From contig PLME01000019.1 in assembly GCA_003142375.1 (NCBI GenBank), forward strand, positions 88,709 to 152,708: 64,000 nucleotides of DNA. Direction: 5' to 3'. The DNA comes from Dehalococcoidia bacterium. Lineage in GTDB: Bacteria > Chloroflexota > Dehalococcoidia > GIF9 > UBA5629. The notes under the pieces were generated by a model. It was not told the origin of the DNA. It was given only the letters and a program-made list of their open reading frames with translations, and made no database searches. Shown in pieces: positions 11,549 to 55,600 of this stretch (position 1 is the stretch's first letter; each line of letters opens with the position of its first letter). The position numbers were made by a program, and so were the translations under genes.

Positions 11549-12889
11549 TTACAGGATGGGCAGGTATTTTTTCAGCTCCCACTCTGTAACCTGAACCCGG
11601 TACTGATCACATTCCACTTTTTTGTTCTGTATAAAGGCGTTGAAGAGGTGGTCGCCCAGCGCCTTCTTGACCAGGGAGCTTTTCTCCGTAAGGGCTATGG
11701 CATCGTCCAGGCTGCCGGGCAGCGTCTTGATGCCGCGCTTCTTTCTCTGCTCAGCGCTCATCTCGTAGACGTTCTCCTCGACGGGCGCAGGCGGCTCCAG
11801 TCCCTTTTCGATGCCGTCCAGGCCGGCGGCCAGCATTACGCTGAAAACCAGGTAGGGGTTGCAGGCCGGGTCGGGAGAGCGGTATTCGATGCGCGTGGCA
11901 GTTTCCCGGCCGGGTTTGTATTCGGGCACCCTTACCAGGTCGGCGCGGTTGCGCCTGGCCCACGATACGTAAACGGGCGCCTCGTAGCCGGGAACCAGGC
12001 GTTTGTAGGAGTTGATCCACTGGCTGGTCACCGCGGTGATATCGGGGGCATGCTTGAGAATGCCTGCTATATAGCTCCGGGCGATTTTGGACAGGTGGAA
12101 GGGGTCGCTCTTATCGAAGAAGGCATTGCGTTCGCCTTTGAATAACGATTGATGCACGTGCATGCCGCTGCCGTTTTCCCCGAAGATGGGCTTGGGCATG
12201 AAGGTGGCGTAGACGTTGTTCTCCATGGCGACCTGCTTGACCACCAGCCGGTAGGTCATGACGCTATCGGCCATGGTGAGGGCGTCGGTATAACGCATAT
12301 CGATTTCATGCTGGCTGGGCGCAACCTCATGATGCGAATATTCAATGCCTATGCCCATTTCTTCCAGCGCCAGTACCGACTGACGCCTGAGGTCGACTGC
12401 CATATCCAGCGGCACCAGGTCGAAATAGCCGCCTGAATCCAGGGTTTCCGTGCCCTTGTTATTCTTGAAATAAAAATACTCCAGCTCCGGGCCGACATAG
12501 AAGGTATAGCCGAGATCGGAGGAGCGTTTCAGGTTCTTCTTGAGGATAAACCTGGGGTCGCCCTCGAAGGGCTGGCCGCCCGGCATATAGATATCGCAGA
12601 ACATGCGTCCCACCGACTGTTCTTTGGGCCTCCATGGAAGCAGTTGGAAGGTGTCGGGGTCCGGCAGCGCGATCATGTCGCTCTCATCGATACGGGCGTA
12701 GCCCTCGATGGACGAGCCGTCGAAACCCATGCCTTCTTCCAGGGCTTTTTCCAGTTCCTCGATAGTGATGGAGAAGCTTTTCAGGAAGCCGAGGATATCC
12801 GTAAACCACAGGTTCACGAATTTTACATCGTGTTCCCTGGCCATTTTGAGAACGTATTCTACCGCATCTGCCCTATCTTTGGTCACCAT
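11549..12889 (-). CDS. glnA: Glutamine synthetase type I (copy 1)
   Basis: 446 aa; GFDGSSIEGYARIDESDMIALPD...[12 protein letters not shown]...[15 protein letters not shown]. Confidence 0.96.
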   Translation of the reverse strand: MVTKDRADAVEYVLKMAREHDVKFVNLWFTDILGFLKSFSITIEELEKALEEGMGFDGSSIEGYARIDESDMIALPDPDTFQLLPWRPKEQSVGRMFCDIYMPGGQPFEGDPRFILKKNLKRSSDLGYTFYVGPELEYFYFKNNKGTETLDSGGYFDLVPLDMAVDLRRQSVLALEEMGIGIEYSHHEVAPSQHEIDMRYTDALTMADSVMTYRLVVKQVAMENNVYATFMPKPIFGENGSGMHVHQSLFKGERNAFFDKSDPFHLSKIARSYIAGILKHAPDITAVTSQWINSYKRLVPGYEAPVYVSWARRNRADLVRVPEYKPGRETATRIEYRSPDPACNPYLVFSVMLAAGLDGIEKGLEPPAPVEENVYEMSAEQRKKRGIKTLPGSLDDAIALTEKSSLVKKALGDHLFNAFIQNKKVECDQYRVQVTEWELKKYLPIL

Positions 12890-13038: not shown

Positions 13039-14493
13039 CTAGATATCGAAGTACAGGTAGAACTCGTGGGGATGAGGCCTTAGCCTGACCTCGTCAATTT
13101 CCTTGGTTCGCTTGTAATTGATCCATGTGTCAATCAGGTCCTGGGTGAATACGCCGCCCTTCAGCAGGAACTTGTGGTCCTTTTCCAGGGCGTTGATGGC
13201 CTGTTCCAGCGACCCCGGAACGGTCTTCAATTTCTTTGCTTCTTTGGCACTGAGAGTATAGGTGTCCTTGTCGAACGGCAGTCCCGGATCGATCTTGTTT
13301 TCGATGCCGTCCAGTCCGGCCATCAGCAGAGCGGACAGGGCCAGGTAGCCGTTGCAGGTTGAATCCGGGGGCCTGAATTCAATTCTCTTGGCCTTGGGGT
13401 TCTCGGAGTACATGGGGATGCGGACGGCTGCGCTGCGGTTACGGGCCGAGTATACCAGGTTGACGGGAGCTTCAAAGCCGGGCACCAGCCTCTTGTAGGA
13501 GTTTGTCGAAGGGGAGCAAATGGCGCAGAGCGCCTCAGCATGTTTAAGAAGGCCGCCGATGTAATATTTAGCAGTCTGACTGATCAGGGCATAGCCTTTG
13601 GGATCGAAGAACACATTTTTGCCGTCTTTGAAAAGGCTCTGGTGAACGTGCATGCCGGAGCCGTTATCCTGGAACAGCGGTTTCGGCATGAAAGTCGCCA
13701 CCCTGTTATGTTTGCGGCAGACGTTCTTGATGACATATTTGAACCACAACATCTGGTCCGCCATCTTGAGCAGGTCCTTGTACTTCATGTCGATCTCGCA
13801 CTGGCCTGCAGTAGCAACCTCGTGATGATGCACTTCAATTTCAAGGCCAACTGAAGCCATGACCTGAACGATCTCGGACCTGAGGTCCTGCAGTGAATCG
13901 GTCGGCGGCACAGGGAAATAGCCTTCCTTGTACCTGGGCTTGTACGCCAGGTTCGGCTTCTCGTCTTTGCCCGAGTTCCAATCTGCTTCAACAGAGTCTA
14001 CGAAATAATAGCCGCTCTTATGGTCCTGGTCGAAGCGGACATCATCGAAAATAAAGAACTCTGCTTCGGGGCCGCAGTAGCAGGTATCGGCGATGCCCGT
14101 GGATTTCAAATACTGGGCCGCCTTTTTAGCTATGTATCTCGGGTCCCTGGTATAGGGTTGCTTGGCGACCGGGTCGAAAACGTCGCAGATGATGCTAAGA
14201 GTGGGGTGTTCGCAGATAGGATCGATGATGGCGGTTTCCGGGTCGAGCTTAAGGATCATGTCGCTTTCCTGGATCTCCTGGAAGCCGCGAATGCTGGAGC
14301 CGTCGAAGCCTATGCCCTCGGTCCAGATTCCCCCTTTCGCCCCATCAGGATCGTCTATCCCAATTTCGCCTGGGGTAATGGTGAAATGCTGCCACAGACC
14401 GGGCAGATCGAGGAACTTCAGGTCGATGAACTTGATGTTTTCATCCTTGACCTTTTTAAGAATTTTTTCGGGTGTCATTTTTTCGGGTGCCAA
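13039..14493 (-). CDS. glnA: Glutamine synthetase type I (copy 2)
   Basis: 484 aa; [25 protein letters not shown]...[20 protein letters not shown]...[12 protein letters not shown]. Confidence 0.96.
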
Positions 14494-14736: not shown

Positions 14737-15966
14737 TTATGAAAGCCCGCCGTAAGCCCTTTCGCCGTGCTGCGATATATCCAGGCCGACCATCTCCTCT
14801 TCGTTCCTGACGCGCAGGCCGAAGGTGGCGTCCACCACCTTGGCGATAACCCAGGTGAAACCGAAAGAGTAGCCGGCGGTGACTGCTATGGCCAACATTT
14901 GTATCAGAACCTGCATGCCGTTGCCGTCGATGAGGCCTGACTTGCCGCCAATGGCGGCGGTTGCCAGAATTCCCGTAGCCAGCATGCCGACCGTACCGCC
15001 TATGCCGTGGCAGGCAAATACGTCCAGGGACTCGTCTATCTTGTTGGACCTGCTCCTCCAGAGCATCACATAGTACGAGATAACGGCAGTTACGATGCCG
15101 ATGGGTATGGCAGCCATGGGATGAATGAAGCCGGAGGCCGGCGTTACGGTTGCGAGGCCTACCACCGCTCCGGTAGCAACACCCAGCACAGAAGGCCTGC
15201 GGTGTATCCAGCCCAGGATAAGCCAGGTTATGGCGGCTGAGGCGGCTGCAAAGTTGGTGGAGGCGAAGGCGCTGGCTGCCAAGCCGCCGGCGCTGAGTGC
15301 GCTGCCGGCGTTAAACCCGAACCAGCCGAACCACAGCAGGGCCGTGCCCAGCACTACGTAGGGAATGCTGTTGGGCTCCATGGTCTCCCTCTCCTCAAAA
15401 CCCCTTCTGGGGCCCAGCACCATGGCGATGGCCAGGGCTGCGAAGCCGGCGTTGATGTGAACCACCGAGCCGCCTGCGAAGTCCAGCACGCCCAGGTTTG
15501 CCAGCCAGCCGCCGCTGCCCCATACCCAGTGGGCGATCGGGCAGTAGACCACCGTAAACCATATGGCGGAGAAAATCAGCAAAGCGCTGAACCTTATGCG
15601 CTCCACAACGCCGCCCGTAATAAGCGCCACCGTAATGATGGCAAAGGTAGCCTGGAACATCATGAAGAGGAAATGTGGAATGGTTGTTGCGTAAATATCG
15701 GAGGGGGCCATGCCCACATTCATCAGCCCTGCCCACTGCAGCCCGCCGAAGAGTCCTTTAAAATCGGGCCCGAAGCTAACACTGTAACCGTAGAAGGCCC
15801 AGAGGATGGAGATCAAGCCCAGCATTACGAAGCTCATCATGAGGGTGGAGAGAAGATTTTTCTGGCGGACCATGCCGCCGTAGAAGAAGGCCAGGCCGGG
15901 GGTCATCAGCATCACCATTGCCGTGGCTACCAGCATCCATGCCGTATCGCCTGAGTTAATCTGCAC
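14737..15966 (-). CDS. amt: Ammonium transporter Amt (copy 1)
   Basis: MQINSGDTAWMLVATAMVMLMTPGLAFFYGGMVRQKN; GTG start with AGGAGG Shine-Dalgarno. Confidence 0.96.
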   Translation of the reverse strand: MQINSGDTAWMLVATAMVMLMTPGLAFFYGGMVRQKNLLSTLMMSFVMLGLISILWAFYGYSVSFGPDFKGLFGGLQWAGLMNVGMAPSDIYATTIPHFLFMMFQATFAIITVALITGGVVERIRFSALLIFSAIWFTVVYCPIAHWVWGSGGWLANLGVLDFAGGSVVHINAGFAALAIAMVLGPRRGFEERETMEPNSIPYVVLGTALLWFGWFGFNAGSALSAGGLAASAFASTNFAAASAAITWLILGWIHRRPSVLGVATGAVVGLATVTPASGFIHPMAAIPIGIVTAVISYYVMLWRSRSNKIDESLDVFACHGIGGTVGMLATGILATAAIGGKSGLIDGNGMQVLIQMLAIAVTAGYSFGFTWVIAKVVDATFGLRVRNEEEMVGLDISQHGERAYGGLS

Positions 15967-16149: not shown

Positions 16150-16497
16150 CTATTTAGCGTTTAAGCAAGCTTCGCCAGCGTCGCTGGTCCTGACCCTGTA
16201 AGCATTTTCGACCGGCAGGACAAAGATCATACCGTCGCCCTCCCTGCCTGTCTTGGCCGCCTGGCATATAATACCGATAGCCAGCTGGCATTCTTCATCG
16301 GACAGCACAAGCTCGATCTTGACCTTGGGCAGGAAATCCACTCGGTACTCGCCGGCACGCCATTGAAGTGCGATTCCCTTTTGCCTGCCGCGTCCGTTGA
16401 CATTGGTTACCGTCATGCCCAGCATTCCGTGATCAGCCAGGGCGTCCTTGACTGCGGCCAGTTTTTCAGGACGGATAATAGCTTCGATTTTTTTCAT
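16150..16497 (-). CDS. glnB: Nitrogen regulatory protein PII
   Basis: MKKIEAIIRPEKLAAVKDALADHGMLGMTVTNVNGRGRQKGI...KTGREGDGMIFVLPVENAYRVRTSDAGEACL. Confidence 0.95.
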   Translation of the reverse strand: MKKIEAIIRPEKLAAVKDALADHGMLGMTVTNVNGRGRQKGIALQWRAGEYRVDFLPKVKIELVLSDEECQLAIGIICQAAKTGREGDGMIFVLPVENAYRVRTSDAGEACLNAK

Positions 16498-17723
16498 TAT
16501 GAGACACCTCCATAAGCGTTTTCGCCATGCTGAGATATATCAAGCCCGACGGACTCCTCTTCCTCTTTGACCCTTAGGCCCATGGTGGCCTTGAGGGCTT
16601 TGGCCAGCAGCCAGGATACGACGAAGGAATAGGACATGACGGCTGCAATAGCAGCTAATTGTATAAGGACCTGTTTCCAGTTGCCGTCGATCAGGCCGGA
16701 GCCGGCGGCATTGACGGAAGCCGTGGCGAATATCCCGGTGGCCAGTGCGCCCCACGCCCCGCCCATGCCGTGGCAGGCAAAGACGTCCAGTGATTCATCC
16801 ACCCTGTTGGCCTTTGATCTCCAGACCATAACGTAGTAGGAGATGATCGAGCCTATGGCGCCAATAGGGATGGCAGCCCAGGGCTGCACGAAGCCGGCGG
16901 CCGGTGTAATAGCTACCAGGCCTACTACCGCACCCGTGGCAGCGCCCAGCACCGACGGCCTGCGATGTACCCATCCCAGAATCATCCAGGTGAAGCCTGC
17001 CGAAGCTGCTGCAGTATTGGTGGTGACAAAGGCGCTGGACGCAAGTCCACCCGCCGTTAAAGCGCTGCCGGCGTTGAACCCGAACCAGCCGAACCAGAGT
17101 AAAGCAGCTCCCAGCACTACATAGGGTATATTGTTGGGCTCCATGGACTCGCCCTCTTTAAAACCCTGGCGGGGTCCCAGCACCCAGGCTAGAGCCAGGG
17201 CCGAGATACCTGCGTTGACGTGAACAACCGTGCCGCCGGCGAAATCGAGGGCGCCAAGCTGCGCCAACCAGCCGCCGCTGCCCCATACCCAGTGTGCGAT
17301 CGGACAATAGACCAGCGTAAACCACAGTGCGGCAAAGGCCAGCAGTGCGCCGAACTTGATGCGTTCTACTACGGCGCCTGTCCACAAAGCCACAGTGATG
17401 ATGGCAAAGGCGCCCTGAAAGGCCATGAAAGCCAGGTGCGGCACAGTAACGGCATAGATTGTGGAGGCGGCCTGTCCCACTCCCATCAGCCCGAACCATG
17501 CAAAGTTACCGGTCAGGCCTTTAACATCCGGCCCGAAAGCCATCGTATAGCCGTAAATTACCCAGAGCACGGAAATCATGCAGAGGATAGCGAAACTCAT
17601 CATTATGGTCGAAAGAAGGTTCTTTTTTCTGACCATCCCGCCGTAAAAGAAGGCGAGGCCGGGCGTCATAAGGATCACAAGCGCTGTGGAAATGAGTAAC
17701 CAGGCAGTATCGCCCGAATTCAT
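16497..17723 (-). CDS. amt: Ammonium transporter Amt (copy 2)
   Basis: MNSGDTAWLLISTALVILMTPGLAFFYGGMVRKKN; overlaps glnB by 1 nt. Confidence 0.96.
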   Translation of the reverse strand: MNSGDTAWLLISTALVILMTPGLAFFYGGMVRKKNLLSTIMMSFAILCMISVLWVIYGYTMAFGPDVKGLTGNFAWFGLMGVGQAASTIYAVTVPHLAFMAFQGAFAIITVALWTGAVVERIKFGALLAFAALWFTLVYCPIAHWVWGSGGWLAQLGALDFAGGTVVHVNAGISALALAWVLGPRQGFKEGESMEPNNIPYVVLGAALLWFGWFGFNAGSALTAGGLASSAFVTTNTAAASAGFTWMILGWVHRRPSVLGAATGAVVGLVAITPAAGFVQPWAAIPIGAIGSIISYYVMVWRSKANRVDESLDVFACHGMGGAWGALATGIFATASVNAAGSGLIDGNWKQVLIQLAAIAAVMSYSFVVSWLLAKALKATMGLRVKEEEESVGLDISQHGENAYGGVS

Positions 17724-17768: not shown

Positions 17769-17806
17769 GTTTCGGGATTATTACGGGGATGTTAACTTTG
17801 TGTTAC
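17769..17806 (-). promoter_or_regulatory. GlnR-like box array upstream of amt copy 2
   Basis: Minus strand: GTAAC-ACAAAG-TTAAC-ATCCCC-GTAAT-AATCCC-GAAAC; four pentamers at exact 11-bp spacing, 46-83 nt upstream of the amt2 start. Confidence 0.65.
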
Positions 17807-17815
17807 AGGATGGGG

Positions 17816-18502
17816 TTAACTTTTGGTGGGGGAATCTTTGAACTTGTAGCCTATATTCCTGACGGTATCAACGAAGGCATGCTCCGGGTCTTCTATCTTG
17901 CTGCGCAGCCTGCGGATGTGGACGTCCACCGTGCGGTCGCCGCCGTAGTAATCGTAGCCCCAGATTTCGTTGAGCAGCGCTTCACGCGTAAAGACCTTTC
18001 CCTTGTTGGTGGCCAGCAATTTCAGCAGCTCATATTCTTTGAAGGTCAGCGCCAGCAGCCTGCCCCCCAGCTCCACTTCACACCTGATGGGGTCGATGGT
18101 CAGGTCCCCTACCTTTATTATAGTCGCTTCGTTTTCTCTGTTGACCCTGCTGACCAGCCTGCGTATCCTGGTGGAGAGCTCATCCAGGTTCCAGGGTTTC
18201 ATGATGAAATCATCCAGACCCTGCTCGCCGACGACCGTGTGCAGGGTTGGAGTGGAGATAAGTGCGATCACAGGGAGCAGCCGCCTCAATTTGAGCTTCC
18301 TGAACCATTTCCAGGCCGAATCGCCGTGGGCCGAGATGGCGGATACGTCGACCAGGGCAATATTGAAGAATTGGCGCTGGTCCTGCTCGATCACGTCATC
18401 GGCATAGACGCAGGCGGTGCAGGAAAAGCCCAGCCGGCTGAGGCCTGCGCTCAGGTCCTTCACCCGGTCCATCTCGTTGGTAACTAATAAAATGTTGTAC
18501 AT
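17816..18502 (-). CDS. OmpR-family response regulator (winged HTH), GlnR-like by context
   Basis: MYNILLVTNEMDRVKDLSAGLSRLGF...LALTFKEYELLKLLATNKGKVFTREALLNEIWGYDYYGGDRTVDVHIRRLRSKIEDPE. The receiver looks atypical. Start set at internal ATG. Confidence 0.88.
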   Translation of the reverse strand: MYNILLVTNEMDRVKDLSAGLSRLGFSCTACVYADDVIEQDQRQFFNIALVDVSAISAHGDSAWKWFRKLKLRRLLPVIALISTPTLHTVVGEQGLDDFIMKPWNLDELSTRIRRLVSRVNRENEATIIKVGDLTIDPIRCEVELGGRLLALTFKEYELLKLLATNKGKVFTREALLNEIWGYDYYGGDRTVDVHIRRLRSKIEDPEHAFVDTVRNIGYKFKDSPTKS

Positions 18503-18516
18503 AAATAAAGGTTTTA

Positions 18517-19518
18517 TTATATCAGTTCGTTGAATGGACGCAGCCTGGTTACATCCATCACTCCGCACATAGCCCGGTTGCTTACATGGATACCTGCTTC
18601 GGCTGCCGCAGCCGCAGGATTCAGGCCGCTAAGCGTAATCAGCCCGGCCTTTTCAGGATTATAGGGTATCTCGCATATCTTATCGCCGGGCCTGGCCAGC
18701 ACGGCGAAGCTGATCAGGCCGCTGCTCTTCAAACGCTGAAGCAGTTCGTCTGCTTTGCCGACCGAGAGCATGGGTATTTCATGATAGCCCGCCAGCACTT
18801 TGCCATCGCCGCTGGCAGCCGCATGTATCACATCTGTCATATTTCCGGCTATGAATATATCGGACGGGTCTATGGTGGAACCCGAGAATTCGATGAGGTC
18901 GATAAACCTGAAGGGCTGGCCCTCTCTGATCTGAAGCAGTCCGCCGAAGCGTGCGTGGGCAGGGATGCCCGCTTTCAGCAGGCAGCCGTTGACAGCTACG
19001 CTGCAAACAGTGGCGAAACCTATCTTGCCCGCCGGCACGAGGGTATCTCCCAGGTTGTTGCCTTCGGCGGCTACGGCTACCATGCCGGACGAGCAAAGCC
19101 CGGACTCGAAGACGCCTTTCATGGCCTTCAAGGCCTTCGAGTAATCTTCCCTGGCGATGAGCCAGGCGTCTATGGGTATCCTGCCGGTGGATGAGCGCAA
19201 GCCCACGTTGGTCTGGTAAGCCAGCCGCTCAATCTTGGTTCCCACGAATCCTATCTTGTCGGTTACCAGGCAGTTCCTCAATTCCTCCAGCCCTGCCACC
19301 GTGATCGTGCGTCCGTCCTTGCGGCCCACGGTGCGCGTCAACCCGCGTCCGTCCATAATTTTCAGGTGATAGCGCACAGCCCTTTCACCCAGGGATATGC
19401 CCTGCTCTTCCAGAAGGGTGGAAATATTCCGGCTGCCCAGTGGACCGGGCGAGTCGCTGAGGATTTTGAGAATGGCGGTGGTCTTCCTGTCTACTTCACG
19501 CGTTTCCTGTCCTAGCAT
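18517..19518 (-). CDS. NrpR-like transcriptional repressor (HTH + DUF128/NRD domain)
   Basis: HTH: KTTAILKILSDSPGPLGSRNISTLLEEQGISLGERAVRYHLKIMDGRGLTRTVGRKDGRTIT; then a DUF128-like domain (GFVGTKIERLAYQTN...NPAAAAAEAGIHV). Confidence 0.85.
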   Translation of the reverse strand: MLGQETREVDRKTTAILKILSDSPGPLGSRNISTLLEEQGISLGERAVRYHLKIMDGRGLTRTVGRKDGRTITVAGLEELRNCLVTDKIGFVGTKIERLAYQTNVGLRSSTGRIPIDAWLIAREDYSKALKAMKGVFESGLCSSGMVAVAAEGNNLGDTLVPAGKIGFATVCSVAVNGCLLKAGIPAHARFGGLLQIREGQPFRFIDLIEFSGSTIDPSDIFIAGNMTDVIHAAASGDGKVLAGYHEIPMLSVGKADELLQRLKSSGLISFAVLARPGDKICEIPYNPEKAGLITLSGLNPAAAAAEAGIHVSNRAMCGVMDVTRLRPFNELI

Positions 19519-52539: not shown

Positions 52540-53913
52540 CTACCTGCACGGAAGGATGACAGAGAAAGTGGTACCTTTACCAACCTCGCTTTCAGCTTCC
52601 ATCCTGCCGCCGTGAGCTTCAGCGATGCTTTTAGCGATTGACAAACCCAGGCCGGTTCCTGTGTCACCACGGGAATGCGTTTGATCTACACGATAGAAAC
52701 GTTCAAAGATATGCGGCAAATGTTCGGGAGGGATGCCGATGCCTGTATCACTTATAGCTACTATTGCCATTCCATCCTTCTCGATAACTGATAGTGATAC
52801 GCTGCCCCCGCTCGGAGTGTAGTGGACAGCGTTTTCTAAAATGCTGATAAATAATTGCCTCAGCTTTAAACGGTCTGCTCTTAGAGTTAGATTTCTCCGT
52901 GGTCCGAGTTCGAATTGGAGCCCCTTTTCACTGGCTAATAGTTTTACGTCAGCTGATACTTCAGCTAAGAGTTCGTCAAGATTAACCTTATCCAGGTTTA
53001 AAGAGTCTTTCCCGGCATCACTCCGAGCCAAAGACAATATTCTGTCTATTGCAGATGACATATAGGCTGACTCCTGGGCGACCAGCTCAAGAGACTCCTG
53101 GTATTCGGCTTCGGTTCTTTCCTTGTTGAGAGCCAAAGTGGTCTCAGCTTGAATAACTGCTAGAGGTGTACGCAATTCATGCGAAACATCAGCGACAAAT
53201 TGCCGATAGCGATTAAATGACCCTTCAAGACGTTCAAACATCCTGTTCAGGGTTGAAGCCAACCTTCCAAGCTCATCCCCACCGTATATATTTATCCTGC
53301 GGCTAAGATCACTATATTCTATATCCTGAGCTATTCTGGTTATCTGTTCTACCGGCTTGAGCGCCCGGTTAGCTAATAAGAACCCGCCAACTCCAGCCAG
53401 CACGAGAACGGCCAGCCCGGACAAACCGAGGATATCCTTGAAGGTCGCCATGACATCCCCTATCCAGGCTACCGGACGACCAACGACTATGATTGTGGGG
53501 CTATTATCAGGGCTAACCGATAGCGAGGAAGCGTAGAACCTTATCTCTTGCCCATTTCCGACGGCCGAAGTAAAAAACGTGCTCTGACCATCTGAAGCTT
53601 GCTTAATGACGCTGTCCATACCAGGTAATTCGACATTGGCGCCATATCGCTTGAGTAGTGTCCCATCGGCCTTGTAAATCAATATTAATTCGTTTAGCTC
53701 TTCTACTACCTTTTCCTCGGCAAGATCATTTTCTCCGGCGTTAAGCCTGGTCTGTACCGCTGTTGCCAGGTTCGTCAGATTGTAGTCGAGGTTATGATGC
53801 AGGTTATTATATAGCAGGGTATAGGCTACGCCGCTAAATATGAAAAGCAGGGTAACAATGACAGCTAAATGCCAGATGATAAGACGGAATTTAATTGTCT
53901 GGAAGAATCTCAT
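52540..53913 (-). CDS. HAMP-domain sensor histidine kinase
   Basis: ADVSHELRTPLAVIQAETTLALNKERTEAEY...ISDTGIGIPPEHLPHIFERFYRVDQTHSRGDTGTGLGLSIAKSI. Confidence 0.95.
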   Translation of the reverse strand: MRFFQTIKFRLIIWHLAVIVTLLFIFSGVAYTLLYNNLHHNLDYNLTNLATAVQTRLNAGENDLAEEKVVEELNELILIYKADGTLLKRYGANVELPGMDSVIKQASDGQSTFFTSAVGNGQEIRFYASSLSVSPDNSPTIIVVGRPVAWIGDVMATFKDILGLSGLAVLVLAGVGGFLLANRALKPVEQITRIAQDIEYSDLSRRINIYGGDELGRLASTLNRMFERLEGSFNRYRQFVADVSHELRTPLAVIQAETTLALNKERTEAEYQESLELVAQESAYMSSAIDRILSLARSDAGKDSLNLDKVNLDELLAEVSADVKLLASEKGLQFELGPRRNLTLRADRLKLRQLFISILENAVHYTPSGGSVSLSVIEKDGMAIVAISDTGIGIPPEHLPHIFERFYRVDQTHSRGDTGTGLGLSIAKSIAEAHGGRMEAESEVGKGTTFSVILPCR

Positions 53914-54581
53914 ACTAAAGCTAGCCGATATCCGGCCCCTCTCAATGTTTGAATCAGGCTGTCCTTTCCTTCATCATCAATTTTGCTGCGGAGCCTTCGA
54001 ATATACACATCCACGATATTGGACAGGCTGTCGAAATCGTAGTTCCAGGCCCCCTCTTCAAGCATTGTCCTAGTAACGACCATATTGGGATGGCGCATGA
54101 AGTATTCCAGTATAGAGTACTCTTTCGCGGTAAGCTCTACCTTTCTCTCTCCTTTCCGCACCTCTCTCGTCAGTGTATCCATCACCAGGTCTCCGACCTG
54201 CAGTTTGGGTGTTTTGAATAGCATGTCTCGGCGCATCAACGCGCGAACCCGAGCCAGTAGTTCGCTAAAAGCAAAAGGCTTGGTCAGATAGTCGTCAGCA
54301 CCGGAATCGAGTCCCGTAACTCTATCCTGAATACTATCCTTGGCGGTAAGCATCAAGATGGGCATACTAACCTTACTTGCCCGCAGTTCCTGACAAACTA
54401 CAATTCCGTCTTTCTTTGGCAGCATAATATCGAGAACAATAAGGTCGTAGGGCGTGGTTTCTGCCATGTATTGGGCCTCCTCGCCGTCAAAGACACAGTC
54501 AATGGAGTATCCTTCTTCCACAAGACCTCGCTTGATAACGGCGGAAAGACGCTTATCATCCTCGACCACTAAAATCCGCAT
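53910..54581 (-). CDS. OmpR-family response regulator
   Basis: MRILVVEDDKRLSAVIKRGLVEEGYSIDCVFDGEEAQYMAETTPYDLIVLDIMLPKKDGI...VDVYIRRLRSKIDDEGKDSLIQTLRGAGYRL. Confidence 0.96.
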   Translation of the reverse strand: MRILVVEDDKRLSAVIKRGLVEEGYSIDCVFDGEEAQYMAETTPYDLIVLDIMLPKKDGIVVCQELRASKVSMPILMLTAKDSIQDRVTGLDSGADDYLTKPFAFSELLARVRALMRRDMLFKTPKLQVGDLVMDTLTREVRKGERKVELTAKEYSILEYFMRHPNMVVTRTMLEEGAWNYDFDSLSNIVDVYIRRLRSKIDDEGKDSLIQTLRGAGYRLALV

Positions 54582-54659: not shown

Positions 54660-54696
54660 GGAGGTGCAATCTGAAGATCTAAACTATTAATGCGGC

Positions 54697-54740
54697 CTTC
54701 ATTTTCTATTCATCACCGGTTCATACAGTAGTGTTAAACT
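54697..54740 (+). promoter_or_regulatory. Pho-box-like promoter, copy 1
   Basis: CTTCA-n6-ATTCA-n6-GTTCA (11-bp phase), then 11 bp, then TAAACT (-10-like). Confidence 0.6.
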
Positions 54741-55516: not shown

Positions 55517-55556
55517 GCAACAGCCGACTCCCGGTATATAGAATTATTAATCTTAT

Positions 55557-55600
55557 GTTCATGTTCTGTTCATCACCGGTTCATATGTGCGTGTTAAACT
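55557..55600 (+). promoter_or_regulatory. Pho-box-like promoter, copy 2
   Basis: Three exact GTTCA pentamers, GTTCA-TGTTCT-GTTCA-TCACCG-GTTCA, then 11 bp, then TAAACT. Confidence 0.7.

Follow-up and report, generated by a model that had tools for sequence, protein, structure and literature searches.

Which protein reads the repeated pentamers that precede the ammonium transporter gene amt2 of a Dehalococcoidia bacterium, and what does it control through them? GlnR has been described as a nitrogen regulator of Actinobacteria. The original prediction, made from a stretch of 64,000 nucleotides (the window), took these pentamers for the boxes of a GlnR-type regulator encoded next to amt2, outside of Actinobacteria.

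The array, its promoter and the surrounding genes

The minus strand of the window reads GTAACACAAAGTTAACATCCCCGTAATAATCCCGAAAC from 17806 to 17769, that is GTAAC-n6-TTAAC-n6-GTAAT-n6-GAAAC. The four units (unit 1, GTAAC, 17806-17802; unit 2, TTAAC, 17795-17791; unit 3, GTAAT, 17784-17780; unit 4, GAAAC, 17773-17769) follow each other in steps of exactly 11 bp, so that the sequence and the phasing are as they had been announced. From direct reading and from conservation (see below), we propose that this operator array is a GlnR-type box of the form a-a-a-b. On the same strand, unit 4 is followed by the 10 bp AGGCCTCCTT, by the -10 element TAAACT (17758-17753, of the TAnnnT type), hence placed exactly 10 bp downstream of the array, then by AAGGAGG and by the start of amt2 at 17723. 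The array has a score of 43.4 against a matrix of pooled units, the maximum being 13.7 in 10 simulated 64-kb windows, and of 49.3 against a 54-column matrix for which 43 arrays were used, all of them from outside of the window's family (best value of 16 simulated windows, 6.9). As these scores are far above the maxima of the simulated windows, a chance origin of the array is excluded.

The second and third scores of the out-of-family matrix in the window are those of two minus-strand sites, which have just two good units each: GTAAT-n6-GTAAC-10 bp-TATATT upstream of amt1 (16075-16044, score 13.2) and TTAAT-n6-GTAAC-10 bp-TAAATT upstream of glnA1 (14619-14588, score 12.5). Both were also retrieved by R1, a sequence-only profile of 28 arrays. 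When the whole 2.14-Mb genome of the window is scanned, R1 has matches at E<=1 in three places, all of them within the nitrogen cluster: the amt2 array, by far the best (E 3.7e-12), the amt1 promoter (0.14; 0.137 before rounding) and the glnA1 promoter (0.47). In 20 relatives scanned in the same way, the top match was mostly the array of the amt/gln region.

The genes are arranged on the minus strand in the order hisH, hisF, NrpR, regulator, array, amt2, PII, amt1, glnA1, glnA2, where hisF and hisH are named from their sequence, with no family search behind the names. The first gene behind the array, amt2 (16497..17723; PF00909 3.4e-131, TIGR00836 over cut-off), codes for an ammonium transporter and its stop is overlapped by the PII gene glnB/glnK (16150..16497; PF00543 2.1e-29). 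A second ammonium transporter, amt1 (14737..15966; PF00909 7.1e-126), is followed by the type I glutamine synthetase glnA1 (13039..14493; TIGR00653 653.7 bits, over cut-off) and by a second glutamine synthetase, glnA2 (11549..12889; TIGR00653 539.6 bits, over cut-off). The gene which directly precedes that of the regulator codes for an NrpR-type repressor made of HTH_12 and NRD1_2 (18517..19518; PF01995 4.1e-68, PF08461 2.5e-19). The original prediction had overlooked NrpR, the -10 element TAAACT and the two-unit sites of amt1 and glnA1.

An NrpR of archaeal type is thus found in a bacterial gene order, his-nrpR-regulator-amt. The window's genome has three copies of NrpR, and 97 of the 289 genomes of the class have at least one. 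In UBA1162, a relative of the same genus (matched at 94%), amt2 (L031:5779-7463) gives two overlapping matches in which residues 206-351 are covered twice, with 77% and 97% identity; the same is seen in L151. This doubled stretch is either an internal duplication or an assembly join. Elsewhere in the window, on the plus strand, TTCAT units in 11-bp steps end 10 bp before TAAACT at 54687-54740 and 55547-55600. These sites are near a response regulator/kinase pair (52540-54581) and are perhaps a third type of OmpR-family box with the same geometry.

Conservation of the array and its targets

The orthologous gaps between the regulator gene and amt differ in the spacers but retain all four units, with their phase of 11 bp and the distance of 10 bp to TAnnCT. 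The pentamers are thus conserved upstream of orthologous amt genes across the class, in about 20 promoters. We gathered 17 arrays by orthologous position and not by pattern; in these sequences, which are not phylogenetically independent, the central two A's are invariant in 68 units out of 68, A4 is invariant in all 17 arrays and so is TAnnCT (17/17). More distant members of the class have the array in front of amt though the regulator gene is not adjacent (L141, L148, L149, L165, L166, L168, L171). A reading frame lies downstream of 61 of the collected arrays. It is amt or glnA in 55 cases, a share which is biased because the loci were mostly fetched for the presence of the regulator, and a regulator-like gene in 3. 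In the collected arrays, the -10 element and the start codon are separated by a median of 32 bp. Position 1 is a G in 44, 24, 55 and 55 of the 61 nitrogen arrays for units 1 to 4, respectively, and unit 4 is of the GAAAC type.

Profile R1 has a match at E<=1e-3 in 96 of the 289 genomes of the class. In a sample of 221 genomes of the phylum, an array match was found in 19 genomes, all of them inside the class, and no comparable array was found in the five regions fetched from outside it (L153, L154, L156-L158).

The set of targets is wider in the Dehalococcoides genome G098 (one contig, 1,469,720 bp). Arrays are found there at the glnA2 and amt2 promoters, and also in front of nifH (L204:7717), behind which lie two PII-like genes and nifD, in front of nifB (L203:17985), in front of modA (L204:10615) and in front of a second regulator assigned by tree to the GlnR clade (gene L204:10642-11361, array L204:11410). 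Strain 195 has a nif operon and fixes nitrogen (PMC10117805). The models for nifH, nitrogenase component I alpha and modA pass the NCBI cut-offs, while nifB has 309 bits for a cut-off of 344, its radical-SAM part being matched. The arrays of nifH, nifB, modA and the second regulator are weaker than those of amt: they score 21-31 on a scale on which the array of the window scores 41 and on which no chance score reached 20 in eight simulated windows. The second regulator gene is located beside modABC and nifH-nifD (L204:6783-11421). Another array-like site of this genome (L205:7249, score 32.1, R1 E 0.078) lies upstream of a 143-residue reading frame; as its units are T-first, it is perhaps not of the nitrogen type.

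The regulator and its ancestry

The gene at 17816..18502 of the minus strand codes for an orphan regulator of the GlnR clade, composed of a pseudo-receiver, for which PF00072 stays below the cut-off, and of a winged helix (Trans_reg_C, PF00486 3.4e-27). Its neighbours are nrpR and amt2, and no kinase gene is found beside it. In the receiver, the strand beta-1 has LLVTNE in place of the canonical VDDE, which means that the acidic pair is replaced by T-N. This pair is intact in none of the family members we aligned, which therefore do not have the full phosphorylation site of canonical OmpR/PhoB proteins (acidic pair, Asp, Thr/Ser and Lys). The OmpR-family regulator with an atypical receiver and no neighbouring kinase, as it had been described from the letters alone, is therefore confirmed.

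The window protein keeps the Asp at the phospho-acceptor position and the Lys of beta-5. One could argue from these two residues that the regulator binds the array in the way of an ordinary response regulator, after phosphorylation by a kinase encoded elsewhere, or also that it acts as a repressor and not as an activator. We regard this as rather unlikely: the acidic pair is TN in place of DD, many array-bearing orthologs (L006, L017 and L024 among others) have lost even the Asp, and the array stops 10 bp before the -10 element without covering it, as expected for an activator. The regulator most likely works without canonical aspartyl phosphorylation.

When the regulator was compared with the PDB by phmmer, the top matches were GlnR of S. 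erythraea (8hig, 2.6e-36) and of M. tuberculosis (8hih, 2.8e-35), followed at lower levels by RegX3 (4.6e-30), MtrA (7e-27) and PhoB (1e-17). The DNA-binding domain has 52-55% identity to GlnR and 40-50% to other OmpR proteins. In full-length trees, the regulators of Dehalococcoidia and seven actinobacterial GlnRs form one clade, with supports of 100/99, 96/100 and, minus one partial row, 100/100; the DNA-binding domain alone gives the same clade at only 89/82. The outgroups comprised the OmpR paralogs of the window's genome, PhoB and OmpR of E. coli, RegX3, YycF and others. The regulator thus groups with GlnR and not with phosphate or osmotic regulators nor with its own paralogs, though some long-branch pull is possible in these trees because similarity guided the choice of the outgroups and because the evolution of pseudo-receivers is fast. 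Whether GlnR is the sister group or is nested was also compared, and the sister relation is not rejected (p-AU 0.485). The GlnR sequences of the trees are PDB chains and fetched loci; a GlnR-like query which is not a database entry served only to find candidates, and a S. coelicolor GlnR query of the same kind was used for searches.

We looked for GlnR-like proteins in other classes of Chloroflexota. The best candidates (L121, L122, L128, L129, L156) have canonical receivers (DDE/DDD) and fall outside the clade. A regulator of the GlnR clade also occurs at L047:4446-5156, beside a receiver-like gene and an ABC transporter, on a contig binned as Desulfurellaceae (34% GC), which reflects either a transfer or a mis-binning.

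The residues Thr9-Asp50-Arg52 make the charge contacts by which the unphosphorylated dimer of GlnR is held together. The window protein has the Thr and the Asp, but Ser in place of Arg52, and it is devoid of GlnR's C-terminal tail. As Arg52 is lost, and as the Asp is lost in orthologs, the dimer contacts must differ here from those described for GlnR; since this one structural hallmark, when tested, is incomplete, we consider the system as a variant of the GlnR system. The AlphaFold model of the regulator has a mean pLDDT of 79.5 and a pTM of 0.50, with an uncertain orientation of the domains, and a structure search made with it matched many OmpR-family structures in a ranking which does not discriminate between them.

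The reader of the array and its proposed mode of action

The phylogeny of the protein, the letters of the units (G versus T at position 1), the nature of the target genes and the phylogenetic co-occurrence together indicate this regulator as the reader of the array. As to the last of these, the regulator (E<=1e-45) and the array occur together in the 294 genomes of the class with an odds ratio of 12.6 (Fisher p 3e-20; arrays and NrpR were searched for in 289 of these genomes, and Fisher tests ignore shared ancestry).

The geometry of the array is shared by Pho boxes. The window's genome has a phoB-phoR-pst locus whose pstS promoter reads TTAAT-n6-TTAAC-n6-TTAAC at the same 10-bp distance from the -10 element, and Pho-type promoters with TTAA-type units, 11-bp phase and 10 bp to the -10 element are found at L211:5563 (pstS), L251-L253 and L255. 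Hence, we rejected the idea that an 11-bp repeat of TAAC is sufficient proof of GlnR: the units do match the published GlnR consensus, with a GAAAC b-like last unit (PMC10704036), as had been suggested for the outer units, but this match is not diagnostic alone. The array could then be a box of the Pho type, recognized by this genome's PhoB ortholog or by another canonical OmpR-family regulator, the neighbouring pseudo-receiver protein doing something else; the amtB promoter is indeed common to PhoP and GlnR in Streptomyces (PMC10704036). This is quite improbable in view of the differences between the two kinds of sites. Nearly all units of the pst arrays begin with a T, whereas nitrogen arrays are mostly G-first with a unit 4 of the GAAAC type, and the pst site of the window's genome is not reported by R1 at E<=1. 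The array of the window is G-first and precedes amt2, not a pst gene adjoining phoB-phoR; the targets of the arrays are nitrogen genes, and a close pstS homolog is found in just 5 of 34 array-bearing relatives. As Pho boxes of the same clade share the geometry, some cross-binding by PhoB is possible. PhoB/PhoP resemble the regulator in protein architecture, in their 11-bp direct repeats and in their activator position just upstream of the -10 element; they differ from it by a canonical phosphorylated receiver, by a PhoR kinase, by units which start with a T (TTAAC in this genome) and by phosphate genes as targets.

It is hardly credible that the adjacent NrpR repressor has its operator in the array, although NrpR is encoded next to it, correlates with it overall in the genomes of the class and acts on nif and glnA in methanogens. 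The operators of NrpR are known as inverted repeats, and the array is a direct repeat. G067 and G155 have the regulator and the array without NrpR, while G210, G134, G177 and G007 have NrpR with no regulator at 1e-30 and no array; in UBA1162, NrpR is gone from the locus (one NrpR is present elsewhere in the genome) and an identical array is kept. Among NrpR-positive genomes, the array is present in 58 of the 66 with the regulator versus 4 of the 31 without it, and in regulator-negative genomes NrpR has no effect on the array (odds ratio 0.99), so that the array occurs independently of NrpR where the regulator is missing. In regulator-positive genomes NrpR correlates with the array (odds ratio 15.5), perhaps because regulators were misassigned in lineages devoid of NrpR, or because the two are truly linked. 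From the co-occurrence and from the array-bearing genomes without NrpR, we discarded it as the reader. NrpR of methanogens has in common with our regulator a role in nitrogen regulation at glnA and nif, and NrpR is encoded here in one operon with the regulator, to which its fold is unrelated.

We therefore come back to the GlnR-clade orphan regulator, which very probably binds the array and activates amt2-glnB at nitrogen scarcity, the two-unit sites adding amt1 and glnA1(-glnA2). In the activation complex of GlnR, four DNA-binding domains are bound head to tail on four sites and the receiver tetramer makes a bridge to RNA polymerase (PMC10704036). GlnR boxes read gTnAc-n6-GaAAc-n6-GtnAC-n6-GAAAc, with an irreplaceable A4, and the box of M. 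smegmatis is t/gTAAC-n6-Gc/aAAC (PMC10704036). It is because the array fits this plan (four units, invariant A4, G- or T-first a-like units, a GAAAC b-like last unit) that we propose an activation of amt2-glnB. The winged-helix domains would line up head to tail on the four 11-bp units, along one face of the DNA. Unit 4, 10 bp before the -10 element, would replace a good -35, so that the bound protein would touch RNA polymerase there; this contact, through a GlnR-like tetramer, would activate amt2-glnB when nitrogen is scarce, and the weaker two-unit sites would put amt1 and glnA1(-glnA2) under the same control. The analysis shows the array and its conservation, the geometry of the promoter, the set of nitrogen targets, the clade to which the regulator belongs and the joint occurrence of regulator and array; the binding, the formation of the tetramer, the sign of the effect (activation) and the signal are parts of this explanation that we infer from sequence.

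The likeness to GlnR of Actinobacteria (S. coelicolor, S. erythraea, M. tuberculosis) extends from the protein, an OmpR-family orphan with an atypical receiver belonging to the same clade, to the 11-bp-phased gTnAC/GaAAC units, the four-site arrays and the amt/glnB/glnA targets. The present system differs by its phylum, by the absence of Arg52 and of the C-terminal tail, by orthologs often without the receiver Asp, by a fixed distance of 10 bp to the -10 element, by the adjacent NrpR and by the nif targets in Dehalococcoides. In two actinobacterial amtB promoters, of Nonomuraea and Nocardia, the units TTCAC-GAAAC-gap-GAAAC are in phase and a CACnCT hexamer follows after 10 bp; these two cases suggest a geometry like that of the array. 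GlnR/TnrA of Bacillota is an unrelated MerR-family protein which has only the name and the nitrogen role in common.

Taken as a whole, the comparisons of sequences support the reality of the operator array and the existence of a regulator of the GlnR clade outside of Actinobacteria, much as the original prediction had it, and they point to a class-wide regulon. Our searches of open-access papers gave no description of a GlnR-type regulator from Chloroflexota. The NrpR of methanogens is a repressor released by 2-oxoglutarate, and the adjacent NrpR would be a plausible second layer of control rather than a reader of the array. We would give an even chance to a broader view, in which GlnR-type regulation is ancient and common to Actinobacteria and Dehalococcoidia, serves in the class as a master switch combined with an NrpR of the same operon (activator plus repressor), and was duplicated in Dehalococcoides for nitrogen fixation and molybdate uptake.

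If our reading is true, a probable transcription factor and its operators can be named for ammonium uptake and glutamine synthesis, and probably also a regulator of nitrogen fixation in Dehalococcoides, which is used for the cleanup of chlorinated solvents. An archaeal-type repressor and a bacterial activator would then be united in one operon. Finally, the receivers without even the Asp provide a natural experiment on the functioning of GlnR-type pseudo-receivers.
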